Part shown: positions 38,835 through 60,617 of the stretch, in pieces
Numbering within the stretch: position 1 is the stretch's first letter
Layout of the letters: every line of letters begins with the position of its first letter
Source of the DNA: Pectobacterium actinidiae
GTDB lineage: Bacteria; Pseudomonadota; Gammaproteobacteria; Enterobacterales; Enterobacteriaceae
DNA: 64,000 nucleotides
Reading direction: 5' to 3'
Assembly: GCF_000803315.1 (NCBI RefSeq)
Contig: NZ_JRMH01000001.1
Span: forward strand, 3,410,001 to 3,474,000
Made by a program: the position numbers and the translations under genes
Notes under the pieces: model-generated
The model's input: only the letters and a program-made list of their open reading frames with translations
Databases searched by the model: none
What the model was told of the DNA's origin: nothing

Positions 38835-39170
38835 TTAGATATATTTATCAAGAGCACTCTTTATCCTAACCAAAAAGTTTTTCTTATCCAGAACTTCACA
38901 ATTAAAAACAAAATCAACCTGATTAAAAACATCATCAAGATTACTGTTATTAATTGCGAGTTCTAAAGATTGCATTACCTTACCTTTAGCGTCAAAAGAA
39001 TATTCCTTAAACCATGGGATAACAATTAGCTCTATTATATCCTCTTGTTCAACATCGTTATTAATGTTTCTATTTTTTATTAATTCATACTCTTCATCGG
39101 TAACAACATTATCATCAAGTGATGACAACAACCCGACTAAAGCTGCATATTTCAAATTAGCATCACTCAT
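38835..39170 (-). CDS. Putative immunity protein, helical
   Basis: 111 residues, acidic and mostly helical: LVGLLSSLDDNVVTDEEYELI, IPWFKEYSFDAKGKVMQSLEL and FLVRIKSALDKYI. The start ATG shares one base with the toxin stop (TAATG), the typical toxin-immunity coupling. Family not recognised. Confidence 0.65.
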   Translation of the reverse strand: MSDANLKYAALVGLLSSLDDNVVTDEEYELIKNRNINNDVEQEDIIELIVIPWFKEYSFDAKGKVMQSLELAINNSNLDDVFNQVDFVFNCEVLDKKNFLVRIKSALDKYI

Positions 39171-40308: not shown

Positions 40309-40348
40309 AAAAAACCGGAAGGATCGGGTGATCGCTTCCGGCTTTTTC
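40309..40348. terminator. Array hairpin 3
   Basis: AAACCGGAAGGATC-GGGT-GATCGCTTCCGGCTTT, touching the stop codon of the immunity gene. Confidence 0.85.
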
Positions 40349-40749
40349 TAAACAACTCTTTTAGTTATCTCTAAATAATGATTATAAGTCTCTTTGCTAA
40401 GGAATTTCCTAGCCAAATTATAGCTAAAATCATTCCCCATCATCGCTTCAAATACACATGTATTTAATACATCACGGACATCACAATCAGAATTTAAATA
40501 AACCTCATCAATAAACAAAAAAATATTTTCTATCTCATTATCAAGAAGTTCTCTATTTTCATAAATCACTTCAACGTTGCCATAGAAATAATTTCTAGGA
40601 TCGCATTTATTTAGAAATAGGAAATTAATTAAATCAATGAAAAATGATCCAAAAGATCCATATAATAAATACACATCATCATCGTCATTAGTTTGAGAGA
40701 AAAGAGGAAATTTTTCTCTCAACATACTAATTAACTCATTCTTTTTCAT
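40348..40749 (-). CDS. Putative immunity protein
   Basis: 133 residues, acidic, AT-rich coding. Starts [21 protein letters not shown]; aromatic segment [21 protein letters not shown]-terminal [18 protein letters not shown]. The ATG overlaps the toxin stop by four bases (ATGA), identifying it as cognate immunity of the neighbouring tip. No known family assigned. Confidence 0.65.
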
Positions 40750-41861
40750 AGATGTCCCAGTGCTCCCCTTAAATCATCTATCATATAATTTGCCAAGCTT
40801 CTATCTGAACCACTCAGCACTTCATTTTTATACTTTCCTGAATCACTCGCAAGATTCTTAAGCGCACCTAAATAACTTTCACCTTTATTTATATGGTCAG
40901 ACCCACCAATTAACTGCCCAGTATTTTTTGTATGTAGAATAGAAGCTGCCGTACCTCCATCAGGAACATTTGCACCAGGACGATATAATTCAGAAAACAT
41001 GCTCTTTAATTTAGGGTTATCGATAGAATCTATTATCTTCTGACGTTGCTCTGACGATATAGCATAATTTCCATCCCTAGCTTTTTTCAATATATCTCTA
41101 GACTTAGCACCTTCCTTCGGCGTCAGCCCCAGTGGATCTATCCACTCCAGCGGATTCGTTACATAACCCTGCGGCCTTATCCCTCCCGCTAAACCTATCG
41201 GGTCCGGCGACAGATACTGTCCGCTCTCCGCATCATAGTAACGATGTCGGTTGTAGTAAAGCCCCGTTTCTGCGTCGTACAATTGTCCCTGATAGCGCAG
41301 CTCGCAGTACACTTCCTCGTTTGCCGCATCCCCCAGATAGCGCCGCAGCGGAATAGGACGCCGCTCTTCGCGGTGGGCGCCCCACAGTCCCTGCTCGCCG
41401 CGCCAGCGGACTTCTCCCTCCTCGCTGCACAGCTCTCTCGCCGTTCCCGTCAGGTCAGTCACGATGTAGTGCAGTTGCGTGCTGTCGCCCAGCGCCTCTA
41501 CCTGCGCTAACGGCCGGAAGCTCCCCGGCTCGTACACCCACTGTACTTCCCGTGCCGTGCTGCCATCGGCATAGTATTGCTGCTGACCAATCAGCTGGTC
41601 ACCGTCCCACCGGTACGCCACCCGCGCTACCGCATGCGCCGACGGAACTTGTCCCTCACGCACCTTACTGACTCTGCGGCCAAACGCATCGTAACGATAC
41701 CGCCAGCGCGCCCCGTCCGGCAAACTCACCCGTACCAGACGGTCCTGCACGTCCCAGTCGAAATACGTCTCCTTCGGCCTGAACCCCGGCCGCGTTTCAC
41801 GCTTCATCGCCAGACGACCGCAGTCGTCATACCGGTACTGCGTATGGCCCCGCTCCACCAC
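40746..41861 (-). CDS. Orphan Rhs core fragment with unassigned toxin tip
   Basis: Rhs core homology starts at about 41970 ([13 protein letters not shown]) but an amber codon (41877-41879) replaces the CAG of GAGQVTA, so the readable frame restarts at a GTG ([10 protein letters not shown]). Core is intact from there to [11 protein letters not shown]. The tip (about 130 residues) begins TPKEG, a linker also found in the full-length Rhs, and contains [40 protein letters not shown] and a C-terminal [15 protein letters not shown] do not recognise its activity. Followed by an overlapping immunity gene. Confidence 0.72.
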
Positions 41862-42287: not shown

Positions 42288-42599
42288 TTAATTAAATTTC
42301 GGATTGAATATTTTTTGTCCTTTACATGTAGCTAATTCATTAATATTCACCCGCGTATTATCATTAATAAAAAAAACTGCATCATTGAGAGAATCAAACT
42401 CTATAATCTCTTCTCTTAGATACTCTTCGCAATTCATTTTTGATTCTAATATCTCATCCACATAAACTTTATACTTCTTTTCCCATTTTTGTATACCCAC
42501 CGATGACCAACATAATTCATCATTGATATAAAAACAAAATCTCTTACCAAGCTGAGTCCCATTTTCTATAGATTTCAATAGGTTTTCATTTATCATCAT
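42288..42599 (-). CDS. Putative immunity protein
   Basis: 103 residues, unrecognised. [39 protein letters not shown] and an acidic middle ([20 protein letters not shown]). The start overlaps the toxin stop by four bases (ATGA), so it is the cognate immunity gene by position. Confidence 0.65.
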
Positions 42600-43140
42600 G
42601 CACCACCTACTATATTTATAACAACTTTAATACCATCCCTACGTTTTATATTTATATGAGGGTATCGGCCATGCTCATCATTCGGACCATGCCCTCTAAC
42701 TCTCCCTGTCGCAGGATCAATGCCATAGTCTTTATGATATGCACCACCTTGCTTGAAACGATCCATTTTCCGTTTTTTTCTCGCTCCTTGAGCATCCTGA
42801 GAACCAACACCGTTAACTTTTTGATAATCAGGAAATGCTTCACGTAGCAGTTCATCTGCTTCAGCTTTAGTCCTAACCTCAACAGTCGTGTTTTTACCAC
42901 CAGTTCTTAATGCATCTACTTTTTTCGGGCAAGCAGCTTTGGCCAACCCCAGCGGATCCCCCCACTCTAGGGGATTGTGGACGTAGGCTTGCGGTCTATT
43001 TCCGCCGTGTAAACCTATCGGGTCCGGCGACAGATACTGTCCACTCTCCGCATCATAGTAACGATGTCGGTTGTAGTAAAGTCCCGTTTCCGCATCGTAC
43101 AGTTGCCCCTGATAGCGCAGCTCGCAGTACACTTCCTCGT
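42596..43140 (-). CDS. Rhs fragment with toxin tip, 5' end cut by an IS element
   Basis: The Rhs part begins at [20 protein letters not shown] exactly at the IS border; the open frame continues into the IS up to 43294 and could start there. After [19 protein letters not shown] comes a tip of about 110 residues: [60 protein letters not shown] and [20 protein letters not shown]. The His/Asp/Asn-rich HGxxxxHGxYPHINI motif suggests a nuclease-type tip of the polymorphic toxin class, but I cannot name the family with certainty. Confidence 0.7.
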
Positions 43141-43220
43141 TGTAAGTATCCCGATAAACCAAACCATTCACTTTTAGAGATCTTCCGACATACTGATTAT
43201 GTCCCGTTGAGGAGATCGCT

Positions 43221-43487
43221 ATGCGCAAAGCCCGATTCACAGAACACCAGATTATCGCCGTGTTGAAGTCCGTTGAAGCCGGACGTACCGTCAAAGACGT
43301 CTGCCGAGAAGCGGGAATATCCGAGGCGTCTTACTACAACTGGAAAGCGAAGTTCGGCGGTATGGAAGCCTCTGATATCAAAAAGATGAAAGATCTCGAA
43401 GACGAAAACCGACGACTGAAACAGATGTTTGCCGATCTGAGTCTGGAGTGCCGCGCACTCAAAGATGTTATTGAAAAAAAGCTTTAA
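43221..43487 (+). CDS. IS3-family transposase OrfA
   Basis: 88-residue helix-turn-helix protein ([38 protein letters not shown]) with a C-terminal leucine-zipper-like helix. Its end contains the slippery heptamer A-AAA-AAG (43475-43481), so a -1 frameshift would fuse it to OrfB as OrfAB, the active transposase of this family. Confidence 0.92.
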
Positions 43488-43537
43488 AACCAGCGATAAA
43501 GCGTGAGCTCGTCAGTTACCTGACCGCGCAGTTTACG

Positions 43538-44332
43538 ATGAGCATACGCCAGGCATGCAGGACGTTATCGCTGAGCAGGACGGTGTATTTTTATCAGCCG
43601 GAAACCTGTCGTGATGAACCGGTGATCCAGGCTCTGTCGGAGGTGGCTGAACGCTATCCCCGTTACGGCTTCAAGAAGCTGTTTCAGGTGTTGCGCAGGC
43701 AAGGCAATGCCTGGAATCATAAACGTGTTCACAGGATTTACTACCTGCTTAAACTGAATTTTCGCCGTAAGGGAAAGCAACGTCTACCGGTGCGCAATCC
43801 GACTCCGTTGGCGACGCCGGAAGCACTTAACCAGAGCTGGTCGGTAGATTTTATGCATGATGCGCTGGTCTGTGGCAGACGCTTTCGGACTTTCAATGTA
43901 GTGGATGATTTTAACCGCGAGGCTCTCGCAATAGAAATCGATCTGAATATCCCGGCGCAGCGGGTGGTCAGAGTATTGGACAGGATCGTGGCAAACCGTG
44001 GTTATCCGCTGAAACTGCGGATGGACAATGGCCCGGAGTTAATCTCGCTGACGCTGGCGCAGTGGGCTGAAGAGCATGGCGTGATGCTGGAATTTATTAA
44101 ACCGGGAAAACCCACGCAGAATGCCTTCATCGAACGTTTTAACCGAACGTACCGAACAGAAATCCTGGATTTTTACCTGTTCAGGACACTGAATGAAGCG
44201 AGGGAAATCACAGAGCGCTGGCTGATGGAATACAACAGCGAGCGGCCTCATGAATCCCTGAATAACCTGACGCCGGAAGAATACCGGCTGATGGTCGAGA
44301 AACCGGAAATCTCAAAAAGTGTGTGGAACTAA
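43538..44332 (+). CDS. IS3-family transposase OrfB
   Basis: Integrase-like catalytic subunit, 264 residues from the first ATG; the frame is open back to the frameshift site in orfA. The DDE residues lie in SVDFMHDAL (Asp), LRMDNGPEL (Asp) and NAFIERFNRT (Glu), followed by YNSERPHESLNNLTP. All motifs are intact, so the element may be active. Confidence 0.92.
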   Translation: MSIRQACRTLSLSRTVYFYQPETCRDEPVIQALSEVAERYPRYGFKKLFQVLRRQGNAWNHKRVHRIYYLLKLNFRRKGKQRLPVRNPTPLATPEALNQSWSVDFMHDALVCGRRFRTFNVVDDFNREALAIEIDLNIPAQRVVRVLDRIVANRGYPLKLRMDNGPELISLTLAQWAEEHGVMLEFIKPGKPTQNAFIERFNRTYRTEILDFYLFRTLNEAREITERWLMEYNSERPHESLNNLTPEEYRLMVEKPEISKSVWN

Positions 44333-45668: not shown

Positions 45669-46142
45669 CTATATTTTTACATCAAGAATAGAAATAAGAC
45701 CTGTATCTTTAATTTGCCTAGCAAAATCCAGCGGAGATCTCCCTGAGTTATTTTTATGCTCAGGAAGTGAATTGTATTTTAATAACAAAGATACAATATC
45801 ATAATCTCCTCTCGCATTAAAAACTGCAGTCCATAGAGCCTGATTACCAAATTTATCAGTTACCAAAACATCACCTTTATTCATTAGAATTCTTTCAGCA
45901 ACATCCTTCATCTTATGCTGAGCTGTATAGTGTAAAGGAGTTTGTCCCTTATCATCTTGGTGATTTACATCAATTCCTAATTCAATAAGTTTATTTACTA
46001 CGGCAACATTCCCATAAGCAATAGCTTCATGTAATAAATTTTGGCCGTACTCATTAGTTACATTCACATTCTCACTAGTAACTAGTGAGCATAACCCTTC
46101 ACTCTGACCATCTCTAACGAATTGAAAAGCATTACTAATCAT
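45669..46142 (-). CDS. Ankyrin-repeat immunity protein
   Basis: 157 residues with about four ankyrin repeats: EYGQNLLHEAIAYGNVAVVN, DDKGQTPLHYTAQHKMKDVA, FGNQALWTAVFNARGDYDIV and NNSGRSPLDFARQIKD. No signal peptide, so cytoplasmic. It starts 13 bases after the GH-E nuclease tip; ankyrin proteins are a known type of polymorphic-toxin immunity. Confidence 0.78.
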   Translation of the reverse strand: MISNAFQFVRDGQSEGLCSLVTSENVNVTNEYGQNLLHEAIAYGNVAVVNKLIELGIDVNHQDDKGQTPLHYTAQHKMKDVAERILMNKGDVLVTDKFGNQALWTAVFNARGDYDIVSLLLKYNSLPEHKNNSGRSPLDFARQIKDTGLISILDVKI

Positions 46143-46155
46143 CTTTCACCTCATG

Positions 46156-46569
46156 TTACTTATCTTCAAACATTTGGCTTCTATTTGAATAAATAGATTC
46201 AGGTTGGTAATTTTTCGGGTCTCTATACTCACTTAGAAATTTATCTTTAGATATCTTACCATCCATATAATCTTTATGTAACTTCCGGTATTCTCTCCCG
46301 CTTAAGTGCCCCATATCCCACTGCCCCGCTCTTGATTTACTTCGATCCCAAACTAATTTTTCACCTGAATTTGGATCATAGACATTACCATCTGCTTGCT
46401 TAGCTGAATTCCACACCTCATCAACCTGGCCTTTAGCATAAGATGGGCGCCTAGTTGGGTTAGAATATGATTTTGATAATTTAGCAGCATCCTGTGCTGA
46501 ATATCCTTGAGATCTATATTTTTTATACCTCTTATATCTAGCTCGACAAACAGAGCCAGCCAATCCCAA
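46156..46569 (-). CDS. GH-E-type nuclease toxin tip
   Basis: 137 residues starting at the PLGLAGSVCRAR junction of an Rhs core that is out of frame just upstream. The tip has a basic N-terminal part (RYKRYKKYRSQGYS) and the GH-E/HNH-like nuclease core WDMGHLSGREYRKLHKDYMD, KISKDKFLSEYRDPKNYQPE and SIYSNRSQMFEDK. The family usually has NRSH where this reads NRSQ (recalled consensus), so activity may be reduced. DNA cleavage is the expected role. Because of the frameshift it is an orphan tip. Confidence 0.72.
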   Translation of the reverse strand: MGLAGSVCRARYKRYKKYRSQGYSAQDAAKLSKSYSNPTRRPSYAKGQVDEVWNSAKQADGNVYDPNSGEKLVWDRSKSRAGQWDMGHLSGREYRKLHKDYMDGKISKDKFLSEYRDPKNYQPESIYSNRSQMFEDK

Positions 46570-47662: not shown

Positions 47663-47685
47663 TAACACAAGTCGCTAAAAATAAT

Positions 47686-47722
47686 AAAGCCGGAAGGATC
47701 GGGTGATCGCTTCCGGCTATTT
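47686..47722. terminator. Array hairpin 7
   Basis: AAAGCCGGAAGGATC-GGGT-GATCGCTTCCGGCTATTTT, after the NADAR-family gene. Confidence 0.85.
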
Positions 47723-48162
47723 TATACCTTCAAAGCTTCTCTTGTTTCCATTAATATGATACCAAGCATATTCTTTCCGGAACCATCACCTCCGTCAGCC
47801 CAATAATTATCATTATGGGTATGCTCTACTAGCAAAGTATCTTCAGTCGATAATAATATTTCTTTAGCCTCAGTGTTTTGTTTAAATTTTTCCAAAACCG
47901 CAAAGCGCATAATATTATTCTTTACATCATCCCAATCTTTTCTTAAAGGAAGAGATCTGTCTCGACCTAATTTTGCAGCATCCATTGGAGACAAAAGATT
48001 ACGTATTTTTTCCTTTAATACTTCATCTTGAAATTTTTGAGATTGAAAATAATGTTCAACTGTAGGCCAAGTTATAGAGTCAATAATTAAATTACACTTA
48101 AAGAAATTAGAAAAAACCCCATATGGTTCATTTACTCTGTAGAAGAAAATAGCATCACTCAC
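47722..48162 (-). CDS. NADAR-family protein (YbiA-like), candidate enzymatic immunity
   Basis: 146-residue NADAR/YbiA-fold protein: FYRVNEPYGVFSNFFKCNLI, WPTVEHYFQSQKF, DAAKLGRDRSLPLRKDWDDV, LLSTEDTLLVEHTHNDNYWA and DGGDGSGKNMLGIILMETRE hold the family's signature residues (Glu of TVEHYFQ, NYWADG). NADAR enzymes act on N-glycosidic bonds; some remove ADP-ribose from guanine. Its GTG start directly follows the stop of the gene above, with AAGGA inside that gene, so it is translationally coupled to the Rhs toxin-immunity pair. Since the Rhs tip looks like an ADP-ribosyltransferase, reversal of its modification is a plausible role (inference). Confidence 0.85.
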   Translation of the reverse strand: MSDAIFFYRVNEPYGVFSNFFKCNLIIDSITWPTVEHYFQSQKFQDEVLKEKIRNLLSPMDAAKLGRDRSLPLRKDWDDVKNNIMRFAVLEKFKQNTEAKEILLSTEDTLLVEHTHNDNYWADGGDGSGKNMLGIILMETREALKV

Positions 48163-48501
48163 TTATATTATCCTTGGCCCTTTTGGTTTAATATCATCCA
48201 CTGACTCTCCAGCAATAATCAAATTGAAGCAGTGCATTATTTTCCTTGACATGCTATCTAATAAATCATTTTTATGATGATAGTTTTCGCAATCTATTCC
48301 TACAGACAACAAGTATAACTCAGATAGTATTTTTTTAGGAACTAACTCATCACTTTTAAATACCCTGGTTAATTCTTCGGCGACCGATAAAAGACCATTA
48401 AACAAATCTTCATTTATTTCACCACCCATTTTTAATGGGTAAATGAATCGACTACCAGTTTCTTTCAGCAATTCTAATGCGTTATATTTATCCACATTCA
48501 T
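48163..48501 (-). CDS. Putative immunity protein of the full-length Rhs
   Basis: 112 residues, unrecognised helical protein: [40 protein letters not shown] and [20 protein letters not shown]. Its ATG overlaps the rhs stop by four bases (ATGA), the position of the primary immunity gene. AT-rich, like the toxin tip. Confidence 0.7.
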
Positions 48502-51500
48502 TTTATAACACCTTTTATAGCAGAATTAGGTATATCTTTATATACAGTAACCTCTTGTGCCCATATAGACCTATGATAGGGTAGTCCTTCAGTCCCATTT
48601 ACCCTAGGAGCTGTTTTCCACACTTCAACATTTGGCGAACTAACTTTATTAAGATCTATCTCTATTATTCCATGGCCACTATCATATGATCTAGCTATAT
48701 CTAAATCTTTGGTTGTCGATATCCAAGGGCTATTTTTGGCTGGCCCCCCAGCAGCATTAGAAGCTGCGGATAAAGGCTGATTTGCAACATGCTCAGCAGC
48801 ACTCCAGTTACCATCCAATGCTTTCCCTTGTATAGATTCCCCGCGGGCTAATCTTGCTGCATCTTGCTCTGTCAAAGCACGATATACTATGTTGTTCTGA
48901 CCTTCCTTCGGCGTCAGCCCCAGCGGGTCAACCCACTCCAGTGGATTATGTACATACCCCTGCGGCCTTATCCCCCCGCCCAGCCCTATCGGGTCCGGCG
49001 ACAGATACTGTCCACTCTCCGCATCATAGTAACGATGTCGGTTGTAGTAAAGTCCCGTTTCCGCATCGTACAGTTGCCCCTGATAGCGCAGCTCGCAGTA
49101 CACTTCCTCGTTCGCCGCATCCCCCAGATAGCGCCGCAGTGGGATAGGACGCCGCTCTTCGCGGTGGGCGCCCCACAGTCCCTGCTCACCGCGCCAGCGG
49201 ACTTCCCCTTCCTCGCTGCACAACTCTCTCGCCGTCCCCGTCAGGTCAGTCACGATGTAGTGCAGTTGCGTGCTGTCGCCCTGCGCCTCCACCTGTGCTA
49301 ACGGCCGGAAACTCCCCGGCTCATACACCCACTGTACTTCCCGTGCCGCGCTGCCATCGGCATAGTATTGCTGCTGACCAATCAGCTGGTCACCGTCCCA
49401 CCGGTACGCCACCCGCGCTACCGCCTGCGCCGACGGGAGTTGTCCCTCACGCACCTTACTGACTCTGCGGCCAAACGCATCGTAACGATACCGCCACCGC
49501 CCCCCGTCCGGCAAACTCACCCGAACCAGACGGTCCTGCACGTCCCAGTCGAAATACGTTTCCTTCGGCCTGAACCCCGGTCGCGTTTCGCGCTTCATCG
49601 CCAGACGCCCGCAGTCGTCATACCGGTACTGCGTATGGCCCCGCTCCACCACGCGACCCGCCGCATCGTACCGCGCCGATGACTGTACCACCGCATCCTG
49701 CACCTTCAGCGTCTCACCCAGACCCGGCGCTATCTGCGACACCTCGCACAGGTTCTGTTCGCTGTCGTAGCCAAACAGCCGCGCCTGACGCCGCCGTCCC
49801 TCATCGCGGCGCTCCGCCGTTACCTGGCCTGCCCCGTTCAGCCTGAATGCCTGCTCGCCCCAGTGACTGTCGCTGATACCCGTCAGACGATCCAGCACAT
49901 CGTACTGGTAGCGGCGCTCCAGCACGTCATTCACCCGGCCGTCCGCCCCTTCCAGCGCCTGACGCTGCAACAGCCCCGTCGGGCTCCATTCGTGGCGCAG
50001 TGAGAATCCGCTGCCGTTAGTTCGTCGCTGCTCTTCTCCCGCCGCCGTGTGGCTGAACTGCAACGGCTGGTGTGAGCCAATGCCCAGCGACGACAGCCGA
50101 CCCGACTGCCACGCCAGTTGCAGCGGTGCCAGTATCCCTTCCACTACCGCACGCTGACCACCCGCATCATAACCGCTCTGTACCGCCTCGCCGTTCACCG
50201 TTTCCGATGTCACCTGCCCTGCACGGTTATAGGTGTATTCCACCACCGCATCCGGGCTGGCGGCTTTGGTCAACCGGCCAGCCACGTCATACGCCAGTTC
50301 CGTGATACCGTCCGTTTCACCATCGGCCTTCCGCGCCGTGATACGTGTTATCCGTCCTGCCGCATCGTGCTCATAGTGCAATGCGCTGCCATCCGGTGCG
50401 GTGCGCTGTACCAGACGGTCTGCCATATCGTACTGATACCGGTACATCCGGCCATCGTAATGCCGCTCTTCACTCAACCGTCCGCTGGAGTCAAACCCGT
50501 ACGTCCAGTTTCGTCCCTGACTGTTCGTCACCCCGGCGAACTCGGCTTCCGCATTGTAGTGGTAGCGCACCGTCGCTCCCAGCGGGTCCGTCGCTTCCAG
50601 CAGGTTATCGAACGCCCCATAGCGGAACTGGTAACGCTGCCCCAGCGCATCCGTCACCGCCGTCAGGTTACCTTCCACATCGTAACCAAACCGCGTCTCG
50701 CTGCCGTCTTCGTACACCACTTTCGACGGAGACTCGCGCACGCCGTCATATTCCCAGCGCCGCACCTGCACACCCGCTTCATGCCCGATATGCCGCTCCG
50801 TCAGGCGGTCAAGGTCGTCATAGCGGAACATCACCGCTGGCGCATTATCCCGCTCAAGGCTGCTCAGCAGGCCACGACGGTTATAGTGATAACGCTGCAA
50901 CACGCCATCCGGGCCTATCACCGTCGACAGTTGCCCTGTTTCACCGTAACGATACAGCCACTCACGTCCTTCCGGGTCGTTCACCTCAACAATCTGCCCG
51001 GCTGCATTGCGCTGATATTGCCATTCGTTGCCCAGCGGATCGGTATAAGCCAGCAACTGCCCGTTATCGTCATACGCATAGTGATGCATCGCACCGTCAG
51101 GCAGGGTAACGTCGGTCACCTGTCCCCAGTCGTTACGCTGATAGACCGTGCGACCACCCAGCGGGTCGGTCTCCGCCACCAGTTGGTTATCCACCCATTC
51201 GAACCGGGTTTCTCCCCCGTCAGGCGTGCGCTGGAGCAGGATATTATTGCGTTCATCTCGTACGTAGCTGAATACCCCGCCAAATCCGCTGTGATAATGG
51301 CTAGTCAGGGTGTCATCGTCGTATTCAAAGTGACCTGGCCAGTAGCCTTCCGACGTTCTGTCACGGATAGCGCGACCTTTTTGATCGTAGTCATGCTCAA
51401 CCCAGGTCGAACCTAAATCCGACCAGCGCAGCAGCCAGCCTTCCGGTGAATAGCGATAGTCAAAGTTACGCCCCTCATCCGCCCGCACGCTCAGTAAATG

Positions 51501-53660
51501 TCCGCGACGATCGTAGGTATAGCTGACCAGTGTTTTTAAAGGCTGGCGCTGCGGGGTACACAGCGTCAGTGTCGTAATCCTGCGGTGTTCAGTGGTGACG
51601 TGAATCAAGCGCCTGTCCGGTAGTACCACCCAGCACAGTTCACCCAGCATCCACTCGAACGTCACCCGATTGCCGGCCGTATCGTCAATCGACGTCAGGC
51701 AAAGCTGAAGACCGAGCGCATGCTCAAACCGATAGCACAGGCCATCAACATGATGAAGAACGAGTTCACCGTGCTGCCGGGTCAACCGCCATTGAGGATT
51801 TGACGATGAGCGGCTGACCTCTCCTTCACTAGGGAGGGTGAAGAATGCCTGATTGAATTCACCATCCGTTAGCGTTGCCACCCCGTTGTTGAGCGTCAGG
51901 CTGATATCCCAGTTAGTGCGCCATAGCGTTCCCAGTAAGCCAGGATGGCGTTTTCCCGTGGAGCGATAGTAGCGTTGCAGTGGCAGCGGCAACATTCCCG
52001 TTAGCTGAATATCAGTACGTTTCTCCACCACCGCACCCGTTGCCATATCGACCGGGTCGCCATTTTGCTTGCTATCTTTGCTATCAGCCTTGTTAGTACC
52101 ATTCTGATTATTCGCATCCTGCTCAGCCCCCTTTTTACCCGATGGCTTTTCAGTATTTCTACCCGCATTAATGCTGTTCGCCTCTTCCGGAGGGGATTCG
52201 CTTTTTTTCTTTACGGGCTCTTGCGGTTTGGGCTTTTCTTCAACGGCATCAGTGGGTTTTGACGGTTCAGCCTTGTGTGGCACATTTTCTTCTGGCGTTT
52301 GTTTTTTAAGCCGCTGGTCTTTTCCCTTGTCACCATCAGGTTTAGCATCGCTTTGTTTAGTGGCGGTTGGCGAATCAGTAGGCTCAGATTTTGAACCCGA
52401 AGATGGACTGGCCGCCCTGCTTTCCGCCGTCGTATGGCTTGGCGAGGCATCGGCCTTTTTCGCGAAGGAACCTTTAGGCCGTGGGCTGCCGGAAACCCGT
52501 GTCACAATCAGAGGAATAAACTTATCAAATTCTTTCTCGAGGGTCGCAATGGCCTCGTCGTAACGTTTAACTAACTGATCCAGATAGTCGAGCATCTTGC
52601 TGAACCGATCTTTCATCAGCGCAACAATCCAGCCATCCTTCTCCGAGGCCTTCATTGCCGTCACCAAAGCCTGCTGCATGGTCAACAGCATCGCTTTGCC
52701 TTTCTTTCCATATTCTTTCAGCAAACCACGCAGTTCGGTAACGCCTTTCACCAGGTTGCCGTTAGACAAGCTGCGGATCGTTTTGATGGCAAACTGCACA
52801 GCCGCAGGTGAGGAGGCATTTCTCAGCGCTTTAATAATCGCCCGCCCGCTCACTTTAATCGCATCACCCAGTCCGGGAATTACCCCAATCACACACAGGA
52901 CACCACCGGCTACATGCAACGGATCCTTCATCAAATCGGGATCTTCATGGGTTTGCCAGCACCACTCACCAATGGAGTACACGTCCAGCGCTTGCCCCAC
53001 CACAGGAATACAACCCAGAATAATCTCGCAAAACATCATGAGCGCGGCGTTATCATCCCCTCCCGCATCCGCCGTTTCTGCTGCGAGGCTATGGTGGATC
53101 TTGTTGATGGCCTGTTTCAGCTGGCGATTACCGCGGTTAATCTTTTTGTCCAGTTCCCAGAAGCGACGATAAGCTTTTGTGTAATCATCTGGGATGGAGG
53201 TGAATATTCCTGCGCCATCAACATCAATATGTCGGTCACTGCTGTCATCAGCGTCATAGGCCACTAGCCCTTGTTTACGCAGGAGAAGGAACAGCGTGAA
53301 ATACTCACCTGCTAGTGCGGCATAACCCGGAGTAGCCTGCAATACGGGGTTATTCTGAATGGTTTCCTGCGGCGTGAACTCATCCTCACCTTCTTCCAGT
53401 AGCAGCTCAAACGTACCTCCCCCCATGTCATAAATGAAACAGAGGCCGTTGGCATCCGTCTGACCGTGGATTTCTGTTTTATTGCTGTCGATGAGGACAA
53501 ATGGCGCATTGGGAACCGGCTCCCCAGAGTCATAATGGTAATAAATCAGGACTTCATAACCACACTTGGCACAGCCTCCTGATATTTTTTTATCCGTGCT
53601 AAAACCCCGACTCGCTGCATCCTCGCTGGAAAGCAACGTTGCCTGCTTGTTCTGACTCAT
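48498..53660 (-). CDS. Full-length Rhs effector with ADP-ribosyltransferase-like tip
   Basis: 1720-residue T6SS Rhs protein. N-terminal region: a CxxC (CAKC) and an Ig-like segment (about 30-90), two hydrophobic helices (about 205-232 and 248-270), then a Lys/Pro/Ser-rich linker (about 395-530). The YD-repeat shell runs from [13 protein letters not shown] to the self-cleavage region LSPDPIGL and [11 protein letters not shown] (about 1582). The 138-residue tip fits an R-S-E ADP-ribosyltransferase: Arg1594 (VYRAL), Ser-Thr-Thr at about 1648 (WISTTKD) and Glu1703 (WAQEVTV). It has no PAAR domain of its own; the two DUF4123 genes upstream should load it on VgrG/PAAR. GC drops sharply at the tip. 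RBS AAAGGA. Confidence 0.88.
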
Positions 53661-53680: not shown

Positions 53681-54598
53681 TTATGCTTCGTCCAGGTGGT
53701 CAATAGCTGCCTGATACAGGCGATCCATACGGCTTTGCGTGCCAATATATTCAGGCTGTATCAGAATATTTTTTGCCCAGGGCTGATGAATGAATTCCGG
53801 CGAGAGTTCTGTCGCCAATGCCAGCCAGCGCACGATATCGCGGTCGTTGTTAAAGCCGTTGTTTTTCGCCTGCTCCGTCTGCTGATGGGTAAACACCTGT
53901 AGTTCATCGTCAGACGCATTCTTCCAGTCAGCATGGTAAGTACGCAGATGCGCCATATAGCGCGCCAGATTCTGATGCCCATAAGGCACCATGATGGCGT
54001 GCCATTGTTCAGCACTCAGTTGGCGCGGCAGGATGTCTGGAATAGAGTGGGGTTCACGGGCGGTGAGGTTTAAAGCGCGAACCGCGCCATCAGGAGAAAT
54101 GTCGCAGAAGCTGGCTATCGGGCCATAGAGTGCACAGGCTTCTTGTGCGGAACTGGCAGATAACAACTGATTCACCACCTGCCAGTCGCCCACGCGCAGG
54201 ATGGCGTTTTCCCCGGAAGGTGAGGTCACCAGGCTCCACTGCCGCAGATGTTTCGTCACCTCAAGCAGTTGATCGAGCGGCGAATAAGCTTGCATAAACC
54301 ACGCCAGCTGTAGCCCCATACCCCAGCCGGGTTGGGTAATGATGTGTTCTTTCACCTGCGACCAGTTGGCGACATTAAGCGGGATGCAATAGGGCGATAC
54401 CGAGGCATGAACGCGTCCTGTTTCCCCCCAGTACAAACGCGTCTGTTCCAGGCTGCCTCCCCAGCGTTCGGCCAGCCACGGTACAGCATCGTTCATCGAT
54501 GCCTCTGCGATAACAAAACAGCCGCCCTGAGCGATACGCGTTTGCCAGACGGCATCATCTTCCGGCAACAGTTCAAGGAAAGGTTGCGATACACTCAC
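53681..54598 (-). CDS. DUF4123 T6SS adaptor, second copy
   Basis: DUF4123 (Tap/TEC type) chaperone-adaptor, 305 residues, which loads a cargo effector on the VgrG/PAAR spike. N-terminal FVIAEASMNDAVPWLAERWG and GRVHASVSPYCIPL form the typical domain, with a helical C-terminal part (NPLQ-type helices, DIVRWLALATELSPEF). The start is a GTG behind GGAGGTCACGCT, four bases inside the stop of the first adaptor (GTGA overlap); the longer upstream reading is unlikely. It sits 20 bases before rhs and is probably its specific adaptor. Confidence 0.82.
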   Translation of the reverse strand: MSVSQPFLELLPEDDAVWQTRIAQGGCFVIAEASMNDAVPWLAERWGGSLEQTRLYWGETGRVHASVSPYCIPLNVANWSQVKEHIITQPGWGMGLQLAWFMQAYSPLDQLLEVTKHLRQWSLVTSPSGENAILRVGDWQVVNQLLSASSAQEACALYGPIASFCDISPDGAVRALNLTAREPHSIPDILPRQLSAEQWHAIMVPYGHQNLARYMAHLRTYHADWKNASDDELQVFTHQQTEQAKNNGFNNDRDIVRWLALATELSPEFIHQPWAKNILIQPEYIGTQSRMDRLYQAAIDHLDEA

Positions 54599-55551
54599 AG
54601 CGTGACCTCCGTTATGTCGGGTAACTCTCCCCGCATCCAACCGGGGCGATGGTAATTAAGCTGCACACTCTCAATACGTTCAGGCTCAGATTTAAAAATC
54701 CGAATACTGTCCGCAATCGAATAACGTTCAGTCAGATGAATAAAGATCGGGTGTAAATAGAATTCACTGCCGAGTACCCAGCGATGAGCGGACCAGGCTT
54801 CACACTCCGCCTCGCTGGCTTTGGGATAAAAACGCCTGGCTAATTCAATACCGCTAATAAATCGCGCGTTGACTATTTCAATATCCAGCGGAAAAACACA
54901 TTGCGCGCTGACAAAAAGAAAGAGTTCATTCGCTAATCGATGTAAACGATTGTCATTAGCGAGAAGATAATATTGATAACGCGTTAAAGTAATCTGGTAT
55001 GCGTTATTAATATCATTCTTATATTCTTTATTAACATCCTGTTGTGCGAATAGCTGATATTCCCCACGTTCGCTATTCACTATGGGCAAGTACAGGTTAT
55101 TTAGCGGGCCGAGAAAATCCGTTTGTGCAGCAAGATCCAGAGTGGACCACCAGGCTGATAAAACGTCTGGTGCATAGCTACGAAATAGCGCTCGTGTGCC
55201 ATCAGGCCAGAGACAGAAAATGCGCTGCTGCCAAAAATCGGCCACCTGCTGCAATGTCAGTTCGCCATGCATGAGGATCACGTTACCATGACGCTCCGGC
55301 TGTGTTTCGGTCAGCCAGTGCAGTAGGGTTTCTCCTGGTTTGCCTTCTTCTACCTTCACCACAATAGGCGCCCACATCTGCCAGTTTTCAGCATCCTTGC
55401 CAAAATGCAGTTGCTGCCATATATCCGACGCCGCAGGTTGAAAAGCCTGCCAATACTCAGGTAAGGAGGGATAACTCAACGGCGAGATAATCGCGAACAA
55501 AGGTGCATTAAATTGGCTGATTTCAAACAGGGTATAACCGTTTGCCATCAT
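54595..55551 (-). CDS. DUF4123 T6SS adaptor, first copy
   Basis: DUF4123-type adaptor, 318 residues: GYTLFEISQFNAPLFAIISP, HWLTETQPERHGNVILMHGE and LTLQQVADFWQQRIFCLWPD, followed by FRSYAPDVLSAWW. Strongly diverged from its neighbour, so the two probably serve different partners or act together. I start at the ATG-ATG (MMANG); 25 further upstream codons are open but lack a ribosome site. Translationally coupled to the second copy. Confidence 0.8.
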   Translation of the reverse strand: MMANGYTLFEISQFNAPLFAIISPLSYPSLPEYWQAFQPAASDIWQQLHFGKDAENWQMWAPIVVKVEEGKPGETLLHWLTETQPERHGNVILMHGELTLQQVADFWQQRIFCLWPDGTRALFRSYAPDVLSAWWSTLDLAAQTDFLGPLNNLYLPIVNSERGEYQLFAQQDVNKEYKNDINNAYQITLTRYQYYLLANDNRLHRLANELFLFVSAQCVFPLDIEIVNARFISGIELARRFYPKASEAECEAWSAHRWVLGSEFYLHPIFIHLTERYSIADSIRIFKSEPERIESVQLNYHRPGWMRGELPDITEVTL

Positions 55552-55706
55552 CGTTATTTGCCTGTAAATAAATGAGATAATTTTTAATACGATGAGCGTG
55601 TATTCAGCACAGCAGCAACGACCCAATAATCACGCAGATTATCGGGTCGAGACATACCGTTTATTTTTATGACGCGAAATGAATAATAAAACGGAGAATC
55701 AAAAAA

Positions 55707-56486
55707 CTATACTGGCAGTCCTTTTTCCCAACGATCGCGAACTTCAGCAGGTGACAGCGGTGGGAATTTAACACCGCGATCCAGTAATAGCTGTTTTACC
55801 TTTAATGCCCAAGGGTATTGAGGAGATTTAGGAGACATAATGGATAAGCTGTCATCCACGGTAAAAGCGAGATTACTGCCTGTCTCATCATAAATATGAC
55901 TATCTGCGCCTTGTTCTATCAGCCAATAGGCGATTTCATACTTATTCAGATAAGCAGCATAGTGGGCGCTATTTCTTTTGGGGCCATCAACGAGATTCAA
56001 ATCAGCGCCCCGCTCTACGAGCAATTTGATATCGGCCCAGCGCTCTTCCCCAATAGCACTAAATATTGCTGGCTGGCCAAGACGCCCAATCGCATTCGGG
56101 TCGCCTCCCGCATCTAGGATAATGCGAAGCCAGTCAGGGTCTTTCGCGCCCGCGACGGAATTCACCGCACTGTCGCCAAACCCATCTTTATAATTCGGGT
56201 CGACCCCCAGTTTAAGCGCCAGCGTGACGGCTTTTTTATCCTTTGTCTCATAAATCAGCCACAGCAGCGGCGTGATGCCCTCTTTCCCCTGAATATTCAG
56301 GTTAACGCCCTGTGACAGCTGATGACGGGCTGCTGACTCGTCACCTTTTTGAATACTTTCCAGTACCGCCACCACGGGCGGTTCAAAAAGTTCACTTGCC
56401 CGCATACTGTGTCCTCCTGCCTGACAAGCGGTTAATAATCCCAGAATAATGACGCCCAACCATTTTATACGTGCCAACCATTGCAT
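55707..56486 (-). CDS. Ankyrin-repeat lipoprotein, probable immunity to the PAAR-lipase
   Basis: 259 residues. Lipobox LLTAC with Cys21, so anchored on the periplasmic face; then four to five ankyrin repeats (GKEGITPLLWLIYETKDKKA, DGFGDSAVNSVAGAKDPDWL, GQPAIFSAIGEERWADIKLL, RNSAHYAAYLNKYEIAYWLI). The start shares a base with the effector stop (TAATG). A periplasmic inhibitor fits a lipase that attacks membrane lipids from the periplasm, as for known Tle-Tli pairs. Confidence 0.82.
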   Translation of the reverse strand: MQWLARIKWLGVIILGLLTACQAGGHSMRASELFEPPVVAVLESIQKGDESAARHQLSQGVNLNIQGKEGITPLLWLIYETKDKKAVTLALKLGVDPNYKDGFGDSAVNSVAGAKDPDWLRIILDAGGDPNAIGRLGQPAIFSAIGEERWADIKLLVERGADLNLVDGPKRNSAHYAAYLNKYEIAYWLIEQGADSHIYDETGSNLAFTVDDSLSIMSPKSPQYPWALKVKQLLLDRGVKFPPLSPAEVRDRWEKGLPV

Positions 56487-57856
56487 TATATTCCCCTGAA
56501 TGTATTGGTTATCTTCCCGATATCTTCCTTTTTCTGGCTTTCAATACCCGCAATCACCTGATCCATACCGTGACGCGCAATCGGCGAGCCCCCGACTGCG
56601 GGAAGTGCCATCATATCACCGCTTGCTTTCGGGAGGCCCCCTTCCAACAGTTTTGCAACACCGATGACGCCCCCTAGCACTGCACCGGCGGTTCCACCAA
56701 TCAATGCGCCCGCGCCAGACAATAAACCAGGAATCAATGCCTTACCGTAGGTTTGTGCCATGGTTAATACCTCACCATCCACTGCCTGCGTCTTTATTAG
56801 CGAGGCGGTTTTCGCCAAATCGGCACCACCAACGCGCGCCACAGTATTGGTATGCAAACCCGCAGCATTAAAGGTATAACCCGGCAATCCAGTAACGCCA
56901 ACGCCAGCCGATGCCAGGCCACCGCCTAATGAATGCCCCACAATAACGGGAGGTGGTGAGACGGCTCTTTTTACCAGTTTTGCTAAATCCATTGCCTGAT
57001 TATACTGAGCAGATTCAAGTCCCATCCCCTGAGCAGCGTTAGTCAACCAGTCTTTAGCCCCTGTCACCGCGTTATTGGTGCCCCGATAGGTCAACATCGT
57101 CTCACCATTAATCGCAGACTTGAATAATGATGCACCGAAGCCCGTTTTCATGTCCGTCATGTTGGCATTTTTTAGCCCAGGAATCGCGCCGGTATCCAGA
57201 ATATCCAGTCCAATCGGTGCCTTAGGCAATTTATCCAGTACGCCTCGCCGAAATTCATCGACCGAGTACACATACTGGGCGGCCTCAGCGCGTAAGATGC
57301 TGTCGTTGTTAAACGCCAGCCGCTTTGCCGCATCGGCTAACCCCGGCAGCGATGCGGCTTCAGTCGCCAACTTGGCGCGCGCCAGATAACGATCTTTACG
57401 CTGAGCGACGGAGAGTAGGTCATCAAGAATGGGCAGCTCGGCGACCGACGCCCATTCCATTAACGTCGGCAATAACATCGGCGTCAATGCCAGCAGAGGC
57501 GCACGGCTTTTTGCCGATTGCTCAGCACACGCCTTAACTGGAGACTGGTAGGGCGAATCGCCAATGATGACATTCCCACTACCCGCAGCGACCGAGCCGC
57601 CACAGCCGATCGCATCACCGATACGCGCCGCCAGCTTTCCATTGATGATAACCGTGCCGGAGCCCGCGGATATCGCACGACTGTGTACGCCGTGGGGCAT
57701 ATTCGGGCAAGGGCAGGCATGGAGTAAGACCGCATCGCTTTTACGGGCGGCCGGTTTACCATTGATGATGACATCACCGCTGCCTTCAATAATCGGGGTG
57801 GCAGGGAAACAGCCGTGACCTGCGCAACTGTCCCCTAAACGTGCCGCTCCTGGCAT
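56486..57856 (-). CDS. PAAR-domain lipase effector (Tle-like)
   Basis: 456-residue evolved-PAAR effector. The N-terminal PAAR domain (about 1-100) has the repeated IIEGSGDVIINGKPAARKSD / ISAGSGTVIINGKLAARIGD / VAAGSGNVIIGD and conserved His/Cys (LLHACPCPNMPHG). The C-terminal alpha/beta-hydrolase has the lipase elbow GHSLGG with Ser309, preceded by LTYRGTNNAVTGAKDWLTN. A glycine-rich hydrophobic helix (GLLSGAGALIGGTAGAVLGG) could cross a membrane. It starts 10 bases after vgrG, so it caps that spike; expected role is phospholipid hydrolysis in target cells. Confidence 0.87.
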   Translation of the reverse strand: MPGAARLGDSCAGHGCFPATPIIEGSGDVIINGKPAARKSDAVLLHACPCPNMPHGVHSRAISAGSGTVIINGKLAARIGDAIGCGGSVAAGSGNVIIGDSPYQSPVKACAEQSAKSRAPLLALTPMLLPTLMEWASVAELPILDDLLSVAQRKDRYLARAKLATEAASLPGLADAAKRLAFNNDSILRAEAAQYVYSVDEFRRGVLDKLPKAPIGLDILDTGAIPGLKNANMTDMKTGFGASLFKSAINGETMLTYRGTNNAVTGAKDWLTNAAQGMGLESAQYNQAMDLAKLVKRAVSPPPVIVGHSLGGGLASAGVGVTGLPGYTFNAAGLHTNTVARVGGADLAKTASLIKTQAVDGEVLTMAQTYGKALIPGLLSGAGALIGGTAGAVLGGVIGVAKLLEGGLPKASGDMMALPAVGGSPIARHGMDQVIAGIESQKKEDIGKITNTFRGI

Positions 57857-57865
57857 AGTTCCTCC

Positions 57866-59902
57866 TTAACGTCTGTCTGGCGCATCCGGTAGCGTGGGTT
57901 TCATCGGGTCTTCTGGCGTAATCGATACTGGTGCCGTCCCTACGCCAGCCGCTCCGCCATCGTTGATTTTCACAATCGTCCCAGAAATCGTGACGCCCGC
58001 GCTATCAATCTTGATAAAGCCGCCAGGCGCTTTGATGGTCAGAGCCTGCCCCGCTTCCAGCACGATATCCGCGGCTTTCAGATAGCTGTCCGTATTCACC
58101 AGAACGCGCTGGTGCGCGCCGATCAACGTCTCTTCAGAACCGGACATCGTGGTCTGACGGCTCCCTTCGATACGGGTAATTTCTCCCCCGCCGATGAACC
58201 GCTTGAACGACGCACCAATCTTCTGAATAAAACTCCGGCCAATTTCCTGATGATGATCCTGACCGATGTTTTCAAAATCATCCTTGCCTATCGTTCGGTG
58301 ACGGTGACGCGTCACCCGTTGGAACTGATCCTGATCCACGCTGAGGTGCTGATCGCGCCCGACACTCTGCCGGTGGATGTTGTTAATAACGCCATCCATA
58401 TCTTTCTGGGCGTGGTAATAAATTTGTTCACGCGTCGCCTCATCCTCAAAGCGCAGCTCGTTGAAACCACTGCCTTTATGGGTATCGGTACGCAGCGTGG
58501 TGCGCGTTTTATGTGCCGGTAAAACATACGGCGTCGGATTAGTGGCGTGGAAAGTACGCCCGGTGATAATCGGCTGGTCCGGGTCGCCTTCAAGGAAACT
58601 GACGATCACTTCATGGCCGATACGCGGAATGGCGATCATGCCGTACTGGCCGCCCGCCCAGCCCTGGCTGACGCGCACCCAGCACGAGCTCTGGTCGTTG
58701 CTCGCACCGTAGCGATCCCACGGGAATTGCAGTTTTACCCGACCGTACTGGTCACAGTAAATTTCTTCCCCCGTCGGGCCGACGACGGTGGCGATTTGCG
58801 GGCCGTCCACCATCGGTTTGTACGGCATGGCCGCACGCCACGTCGTCGTGCCTTTCACCACCGTGAAGCTGTTGCTCATGGTGGTCGGTTCGCCGCCGCT
58901 TTCCTCTTCCAGCGCCTGCGGCTGCTGCCCGACGTGCGTCACACTCACCGTCTGCCATACCGCATTCAGCGTCGCATTCGGGTGCTCCGTCAGAGTAAAG
59001 GTATTGCCCGGCATCAGCCCTGCGCAGTTGGATTCCCCTTCGCTTGTCACCGCCCCTGAACGCAGCGCATCCAGCCGGTAACCGCTGAACGCCTTGCCGC
59101 TCGGGTCTTGCTTATAGCGCCCCGGATAGTCGTAGTGCTGATAGCTTTCTCGCTGGTGCGCCAGCTCGCCGCTCATCTTCTTGTGTGACAGCCCGTAAGC
59201 CGGTGTCTTGAAGCTGTAATCCTTCAACTCCACGTCCGAGGTACTCACCCGCTCCGCGTAGTGGAAGCGCCGGACATAGTCGCCCTCACTTAATCCCTGA
59301 TTGGCGAGGTTGAAGAACAGCTCGGGGCCTTTGGTTAGCGCGCCCGCATCATCGGCAAATACCACGCGGTGTTTACCCTCTTCGTATTCGTGGAAGAAAT
59401 ACATCCCTTCTTCCGCCGCCAGACGGGTGATAAACGCCAAATCACTTTCCCGATACTGTACGCAGTATTCCCGCACCGCATGCTCGTTACGTAGTGCAAA
59501 GGCGTAATCGGTAATCCCTGCTTCTTCCAGTAACGCACCAATAATCGCGTCCGGTTTCTGTGCCTGAAAGATGCGGGCATTGGTGCGCAGCCCCAGTCGC
59601 CACAGCGCCGGACGGACTTCCATCTGATAGCGCGTGCGCCGGAATCCGGTATCGCCCTGCGTGAAGCCACTGATAATCCCGCTGACCCGACGTTTCAGTT
59701 CGCCTTCATACCAAATCATCAGCTCGCACGGCTGGTCCAGCACCGCGCCGAAATCCACATCCGGCAACGCGCTCGCCAGACTCAGCGACAGGCTGAAAGG
59801 CCGATTCAGCCCTTCATCCAGCCTGAAATCCACTACCGCAAAGGTGCCAGCCTCCAACGCGCCGACCTTTACGGTGAACTGTAATCCTGTACTGTTTGCC
59901 AC
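57866..59902 (-). CDS. vgrG: T6SS spike protein VgrG (TssI)
   Basis: 678 residues, gp27/gp5-like spike trimer subunit. [18 protein letters not shown] gp27 segment, [40 protein letters not shown] and [20 protein letters not shown] are standard VgrG motifs; the needle ends in [20 protein letters not shown] (DUF2345-like) with a short tail DAPDRR and no effector extension. GTG start behind GGAGAGG. It heads the vgrG-PAAR lipase-immunity-DUF4123-rhs module. Confidence 0.95.
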
Positions 59903-60098: not shown

Positions 60099-60617
60099 TT
60101 ACGCTTCGACCGGTGTACGCCAGTCATCGGAACCAGAAGTCCCGGCAACGGTGTGTTCCCAGTCGATTTTGCGATAAGCCAGCGACACTTCGATTAACTG
60201 GGTGTAGTCCAGTTTGGATGGATCCTGGCAGTGTGGCATTTTGCAGTCGATATCAACGATAGTGGCATCGGTCAGGATGGTAGAGAAGAAGTGTTCTTGC
60301 TTACCTTCAACAGAGGTGCGGTACCATTTCAGGGTCACGGTCGGCAGCATTTCGCCAGACGCCAGGGCGTTGTACATCAGCGGAACAGCTTTGTTCAGCG
60401 CGACGGTGAATTTGAACGGTTTGTGCACACGTTGGCCGGACGGCTGACCAGACTGTGGGTCGGTCGGTACGGTGACGATGTGTTTGAATTCCTGTACCAG
60501 CATTTCGTCTTCGTGGCCTTCCACATAGATGTTGCCGACAGAATCAGAAGTGAAAGCACCCGCGGTAATGTTGCCCTGAGTTTTACCTTCGATGCTGATA
60601 TAGCATGGAGTTGGCAT
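60099..60617 (-). CDS. hcp: T6SS tube protein Hcp (TssD)
   Basis: 172-residue Hcp, forming the stacked hexameric tube of the T6SS and carrying small effectors. MPTPCYISIEGKTQGNITAG, GNIYVEGHEDEMLVQEFKHI and the C-terminal EVSLAYRKIDWEHT are typical. AAGGAGCAAGACT before the ATG is a strong ribosome site, fitting high expression. It is monocistronic by its own terminator. Confidence 0.96.
   Translation of the reverse strand: MPTPCYISIEGKTQGNITAGAFTSDSVGNIYVEGHEDEMLVQEFKHIVTVPTDPQSGQPSGQRVHKPFKFTVALNKAVPLMYNALASGEMLPTVTLKWYRTSVEGKQEHFFSTILTDATIVDIDCKMPHCQDPSKLDYTQLIEVSLAYRKIDWEHTVAGTSGSDDWRTPVEA

Follow-up and report, generated by a model that had tools for sequence, protein, structure and literature searches.

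The nearest published cases to the locus described here are YarT-YbiA and DarT1-NADAR, two toxin-antitoxin pairs rather than secreted effectors, and Imm-ARG and Tri1, which act on secreted toxins but belong to another eraser family. The locus lies in a 64,000-nucleotide stretch of the Pectobacterium actinidiae genome (contig NZ_JRMH01000001.1, positions 3,410,001 to 3,474,000; hereafter, the window) and comprises an Rhs gene with a putative ADP-ribosyltransferase (ART) tip, a small gene for a putative blocker, and a gene of the NADAR family. In YarT-YbiA of myxobacteria, the partner of the ART is likewise a NADAR of the YbiA subfamily, and it rescues cells, but YarT is a stand-alone toxin with an H-Y-E motif, YbiA is encoded upstream, and no third gene is described in the portion cited (PMC11125620); in the window, the putative ART forms the end of a 1720-aa Rhs protein, and a gene intervenes before the NADAR. 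DarT1-NADAR (DarTG1) also combines an ART with a guanine-specific NADAR eraser, but its toxin is of the DarT family and its NADAR of the BC4488 type, with a catalytic Asp and an N-terminal extension (PMC11543638), whereas the window NADAR is YbiA-type, with Glu113 and a total length of 146 aa. Imm-ARG (PMC3482391) and Tre1-Tri1 (PMC10789625) share with the window a secreted ART and, in the immunity, an ADP-ribose-removing enzyme, but this enzyme is an ADP-ribosylglycohydrolase and not a NADAR; Imm-ARG was the only enzymatic immunity known in 2012, and the word NADAR is absent from the portion of that text drawn on (PMC3482391). Neither gene downstream of the window tip matched a glycohydrolase family in a Pfam scan. 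We know of no separate blocker gene in Imm-ARG or Tre1-Tri1. RhsP2-RhsI2 with PARG rescue is alike in having an RNA-targeting Rhs ART that an eraser counters in cells, but its target is the 2'-OH, and the erasers, which were taken from other species, do not accompany the toxin gene (PMC11833690). RhsF-RhsFi of Chromobacterium violaceum has the same ART tip family, with R/S/Y/E kept, and a small all-helical neighbor protein, but there the immunity role is assigned to RhsFi, and the portion of the paper drawn on makes no use of the word NADAR (PMC13324451). In a literature search with most subscription journals and bioRxiv outside its coverage, none of the papers listed was recognized as describing a NADAR in a secreted-toxin immunity operon, in agreement with the initial annotation of the window, whose author knew of no such case.

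On comparison of sequences, we favor with reasonable confidence the reading that the window encodes a type VI secretion system (T6SS) Rhs effector with an ART tip of the RhsF-CT/DUF7587 family, together with a helical blocker and a NADAR eraser, and that the mark is laid on guanine, probably in RNA. Open reading frame coordinates placed the three genes where the initial annotation had them: the rhs stop overlaps the start of the 112-aa gene (ATGA), and the NADAR gene begins with GTG, preceded by AAGGA, at zero gap after the TAA of the 112-aa gene. The hairpin after the NADAR stop had a folding energy of −21.3 kcal/mol (z = −5.58), which none of 200 shuffles equaled; a simple consensus terminator scan did not list it on the minus strand. 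Given this strong hairpin and the U-rich stretch, the transcription unit probably ends there, and rhs, the 112-aa gene, and the NADAR gene look like one transcription unit. As in T6SS Rhs effectors, an RHS core is joined to a variable tip, with DPLGL by our reading as the boundary before the tip, and VgrG, PAAR, and Hcp genes adjoin; the protein would be delivered by the T6SS.

In a Pfam scan, DUF7587 (PF24494) was the sole family matched by the window tip (29.0 bits for the single sequence, cut-off 27). The tip alone matched PDB entry 9ZDM, the complex of RhsF-CT with RhsFi (PMC13324451), weakly (E = 0.088), and a profile from seven close tips, defined by 46% or more identity to the window tip, matched RhsF-CT (chain B) with an E value of 4.1e-5. 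The seven are those of the window, Lonsdalea iberica (L006), L049 (G229), L002 (G052), an Oscillospiraceae metagenome-assembled genome (L007, G774), a Priestia koreensis plasmid (L058), and L100 (G931, of the same phylum as G774); L049 was found through its small gene and the others through the tip. All seven matched DUF7587 at E values up to 1 (best, 9.3e-7), with the scores of the Bacillota tips under the cut-off. When positions were counted along the 9ZDM alignment with the numbering of PMC13324451, tip residues R12, S66, Y77, and E121 (R1594, S1648, Y1659, and E1703 of the Rhs protein) aligned with RhsF R1403, S1445, Y1456, and E1497; Phe replaces the active-site Tyr in the three Bacillota-type tips. 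RhsF toxicity requires R1403, Y1456, and E1497, and S1445 contributes partly (PMC13324451). The initial annotation, which numbered R1594 and E1703 correctly, had described an R-S-E tip; these residues are present, but the nearest solved relative is R-Y-E with a partial role for Ser, and the window tip also has Y1659. Its proposal of an ART agrees with the homology to RhsF-CT, an ART that modifies an RNA oligonucleotide in vitro, has an electropositive pocket, and has as retrieved structural neighbors ScARP, an ADP-ribosyltransferase for guanosine, and EcPltA, whose substrate is a protein (PMC13324451). By sequence, the window tip is a relative of RhsF-CT and probably an ADP-ribosyltransferase for RNA or DNA.

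The window NADAR matched Pfam PF08719 at 130.4 bits (cut-off 35.1) and Escherichia coli YbiA in the PDB (2b3w) at 168 bits, and it is 53% identical to YbiA of E. coli K-12. Three residues mark the YbiA subfamily, namely the catalytic Glu, a Lys, and the Glu that YbiA types have toward the end; they are found as E36, K43, and E113. Seven residues mapped from those that bind or process ADP-ribose (PMC11543638), namely E36, K43, R67, W77, E113, D118, and W121, were identical in 12 of 12 NADARs of Rhs cassettes (the window, L006, L049, L050 to L053, L055, L056, L007, L058, and L100; the broken G052 copy was left out) and in a NADAR linked to a CdiA-like toxin; an eighth ligand position, residue 81, is Lys or Arg (Arg in the reference). 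This identity across two phyla speaks against the notion of a NADAR that, though part of the cassette, works through binding to the toxin or small protein instead of catalysis, which we regard as very unlikely even though DarG also binds DarT and direct NADAR binding has been raised as a possibility (PMC11125620). Between the window and L. iberica, dN/dS was 0.053 for the tip, 0.107 for the small gene, and 0.125 for the NADAR gene (most other pairs were saturated at silent sites); judged by this ratio, the NADAR is under purifying selection.

The NADARs tested so far, E. coli YbiA included, remove guanine-linked ADP-ribose from DNA and RNA and do not remove thymine, uracil, 2'-OH, or phosphate-end adducts, although not every NADAR was tried on every mark (PMC11125620, PMC11833690, PMC13036486). 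Guanine is our best guess for the target, inferred from this published specificity; it is the most likely one because the toxin family modifies RNA, because the guanosine-modifying ScARP is among the nearest folds, and because a putative eraser of such specificity is encoded alongside. The tip might instead act on a protein or a non-guanine site, with a cassette NADAR whose specificity differs from that of the NADARs tested, as the neighborhood of EcPltA (PMC13324451) and a difference between cassette and free NADARs at residue 96 would allow; given the guanine specificity of the tested NADARs among ADP-ribose marks (PMC11125620, PMC11833690, PMC13036486) and the RNA substrate of the solved relative (PMC13324451), we think this quite improbable. 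Of 13 cassette NADARs, 12 have Asn at residue 96, a possible specificity marker, and one (L058) has His, as do all eight free YbiA-type NADARs compared. It is also conceivable, if unlikely, that the NADAR protects by clearing a small ADP-ribosylated nucleotide made by the tip, such as ADP-ribosyl-guanosine or -GMP, and not by repairing RNA or DNA. ScARP modifies guanine nucleosides (PMC13324451), and NADARs are also small-molecule N-glycosidases (TIGR02464; PMC11543638), but RhsF-CT with its electropositive pocket modifies an RNA oligonucleotide (PMC13324451).

The 112-aa protein is predicted to be all-helical (pLDDT 82.1), as is RhsFi, which is of similar length; the profile of the small-gene family gave no sequence match to RhsFi (9ZDM chain A), a difference in sequence between the two. 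Small-gene profiles of the enterobacterial (9 rows) and Bacillota-type (3 rows) members aligned with each other in a single comparison (probability 90%, E = 1.8e-6). RhsFi plugs the RhsF active site via R102 and W103 near its C-terminal end (PMC13324451), and since all nine enterobacterial rows share a C-terminal PRII, the 112-aa protein, by analogy, most likely attaches to the tip and closes its active site with a similar plug.

At all seven close tips, in Pseudomonadota and Bacillota, the tip was followed by a small gene (104 to 112 aa where intact) and then a NADAR gene, with both downstream frames open in six and both carrying stops in G052. Contig ends truncate the carriers of L006 and L007, that of L049 has an interrupted frame, L100 has a 290-aa frame, and the L058 tip is out of frame with its carrier, with no toxin annotated. 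Counting the window, 10 of 392 family genomes hold the small gene or a relative, with 11 places in total, and at 10 of the 11 a NADAR gene directly adjoins (among these, the L056 small gene has an internal stop and the L052 NADAR a late stop). Six of the pairs (L050 to L053, L055, and L056) are orphans, lacking a whole tip of the window family in the flanks examined, and in L053 and L055, 35 to 36 tip residues remain just upstream. Chance adjacency of tip and NADAR was rejected on the linkage at 7/7 close tips and 10/11 small genes. In distant tips (L003, L004, L005, L061, L062, and L063), a small gene was found downstream in five of six and a NADAR in none within the flanks examined, which were 1.5 kb or less (for L063, about 240 bases beyond the small gene). 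The L003 small gene aligned with the window family (probability 75%, E = 2.5e-5), and L004 has an RhsFi homologue (E = 7e-22), both in the same genus as the window. The NADAR is thus an add-on of certain branches rather than a constant component of the toxin family. The tip tree was built without L062 and L063, which the search pattern missed, and without L005. L003 and L005 (G002) are the same distant ART tip present twice, about 4 kb apart, with a 1446-aa open frame in one and a short one in the other.

The same three-gene order accompanies a second type of toxin. At L108/L148 (G066, contig 24), a toxin whose C terminus weakly resembles DUF7587 (E = 0.006, under the cut-off) is followed by a 212-aa gene, taken as an unrelated immunity gene, which gave no profile match to the window small gene, and by a NADAR that is 57% identical to that of the window and groups with the enterobacterial cassette NADARs (support 91/90). 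We read this toxin as CdiA-like because of a match to Fil_haemagg_2 haemagglutinin repeats downstream, together with our own inspection.

Any NADAR was present in 19 of 198 family genomes sampled, and the window genome has only its cassette copy. Cassettes or orphan pairs were present in 11 genomes or records, eight of which had exactly one NADAR match; the extra rows were a second, broken NADAR in G421, a second of another type in G774, and two rows of one broken gene in G052. The broken G421 copy (L104, contig 80, 5613-6031) lies about 3 kb downstream of the intact orphan pair. Of 36 NADAR loci checked for upstream genes, two were toxin-linked (L081 and L108) and five had nothing listed upstream; of 16 in a second check, one was toxin-linked (L133), L132 gave no match, and L136 had nothing upstream. 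With the cassette-NADAR profile, G066 gave the only strong match in its family (121 genomes), and in a set of 100 genomes around G774 the score was 253.8 bits for the cassette copy and 101.3 for the next. NADAR relatives occurred in 87 plasmid and 327 phage records; four of the 87 plasmid records besides that of Priestia were examined, and by annotation none had a NADAR beside a toxin. We rejected the NADAR as a merely common gene on its single copy in the window genome, its presence in 19/198 family genomes, and the few toxin-linked loci elsewhere. The TIGR02464 name and the YbiA-like NADARs found away from toxins would suit a hitch-hiking metabolic gene of the riboflavin pathway, unlinked to the toxin, but we give this little credence in view of the close-tip and small-gene linkage in two phyla, the CdiA-like case, and the rarity of toxin-linked NADARs at the loci checked. 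Three NADARs of another branch stand directly after an uncharacterized gene of 339 to 385 aa with a shared RNCPN motif near its end (L082, L121, and L122), and seven others (L067, L070, L072, L074, L075, L078, and L079) follow an apparent rpoD end, recognized by eye; NADAR-rpoD linkage has been reported for E. coli strains (PMC11125620).

Several observations weigh against a dedicated toxin-blocker-eraser cassette. The fold of the window tip was poorly predicted (pLDDT 50.8), and Foldseek gave nothing useful. The window NADAR also matches the riboflavin-intermediate N-glycosidase family TIGR02464 (135.4 bits, cut-off 73.7). The YbiA of E. coli K-12 acts on guanine-linked ADP-ribose in vitro and protects cells from neither DarT1 nor YarT (PMC11125620), so that NADAR identity alone is no proof of protection, and protection is specific. 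A full-length carrier occurs in the window only, and toxin or partners are interrupted in L049, L058, and G052. The L057 small gene has no NADAR in the 10 kb examined; the same genome has another pair (L051). Finally, the cassette NADARs were not one clade in the tree (three changes, with none of 200 bootstrap trees giving one), and free NADARs were placed among the Bacillota-type cassette NADARs; a single origin of all cassette NADARs was not rejected (p-AU = 0.135).

In the toxin-blocker-eraser reading that we prefer, the T6SS-delivered Rhs tip would place ADP-ribose on guanine, probably in RNA; the small helical protein would bind the tip and block its active site, as RhsFi blocks that of RhsF; and the NADAR would remove guanine-linked ADP-ribose, so that a cell that had been hit could repair the damage. 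Before export, the blocker would keep the producer safe; the eraser would reverse the harm done by an incoming or variant toxin, a use that the orphan pairs fit. Toxicity, blocking by the small protein, RNA rather than DNA as the target, and reversal by the NADAR are what we infer. The enzymatic immunity suggested in the initial annotation gains comparative support, which is not proof, from linkage in two phyla, orphan pairs without a tip, intact catalytic residues, and purifying selection.

We put at slightly better than even the chance that such cassettes form a recurrent effector module, made up of a contact-delivered guanine-marking ART, a stoichiometric inhibitor, and a dedicated NADAR, that moves between phyla and carriers (T6SS Rhs proteins in Pseudomonadota, others in Bacillota, and CdiA-like proteins), toxin-less strains keeping blocker and eraser as a defense. 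If so, NADARs would take part in immunity against toxins secreted between bacteria and would add a second enzymatic class to the immunity against polymorphic toxins, and a genome-encoded eraser could point to the target of an uncharacterized toxin. Why one effector keeps both an inhibitor and a repair enzyme would become a testable question.

Searches for the tip in E. coli genomes at the DNA level and in phage records found none, and in viral contigs 64 pattern matches were obtained, of which none was confirmed. When the L049 cassette was compared at the DNA level with 5426 E. coli genomes, only a 64-base piece of the NADAR was found, in 1005 of them. Plasmids yielded nothing with the window small gene and only the query itself with the Priestia small gene. 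From a tip scan of genome contigs, 39 of 41 loci were dropped (L008 to L046, Rhizobium/Rhizobiales, 25 to 29% identity): the match in L008, which was inspected, lies inside a 994-aa frame that to us reads like 2-oxoglutarate dehydrogenase, and the other 38 were dropped on the same ground.

Features of the Rhs locus, in window coordinates
Feature	Coordinates	Strand	Description
Terminator-like hairpin and U-rich stretch, 3' of the NADAR stop	47677..47718	-	Folding energy versus shuffles
NADAR (YbiA subfamily)	47722..48162	-	146 aa; PF08719; E36, K43, R67, W77, E113, D118, W121
Immunity gene (putative)	48163..48501	-	112 aa; predicted all-helical; C-terminal PRII
ADP-ribosyltransferase tip (probable)	48501..48914	-	Rhs residues 1583-1720; R1594, S1648, Y1659, E1703; DUF7587 and RhsF-CT homology
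Rhs effector	48498..53660	-	1720 aa; matches to RHS_repeat, RHS, Rhs_assc_core
Two DUF4123 genes, directly upstream of rhs	53681..55626	-	Domain matches
PAAR protein	56486..57856	-	
VgrG	57866..59902	-	Phage_GPD, Gp5_trimer_C, Phage_base_V
Hcp	60099..60617	-	

Upstream of rhs, the DUF4123 genes, which we take to have a T6SS adaptor type role, and the PAAR, VgrG, and Hcp genes are accompanied by a VasL gene. Displaced Rhs ends that carry other tips line up between window positions 39170 and 46569, with a small gene after several of them (such as 40746-41861 with 40348-40749, 42596-43294 with 42288-42599, and 46156-46569 with the ankyrin-like 45669-46142), which we read as an array of spare tip-immunity cassettes. 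Amid these ends are two open frames (43221-44332), presumably an IS3-type transposase.

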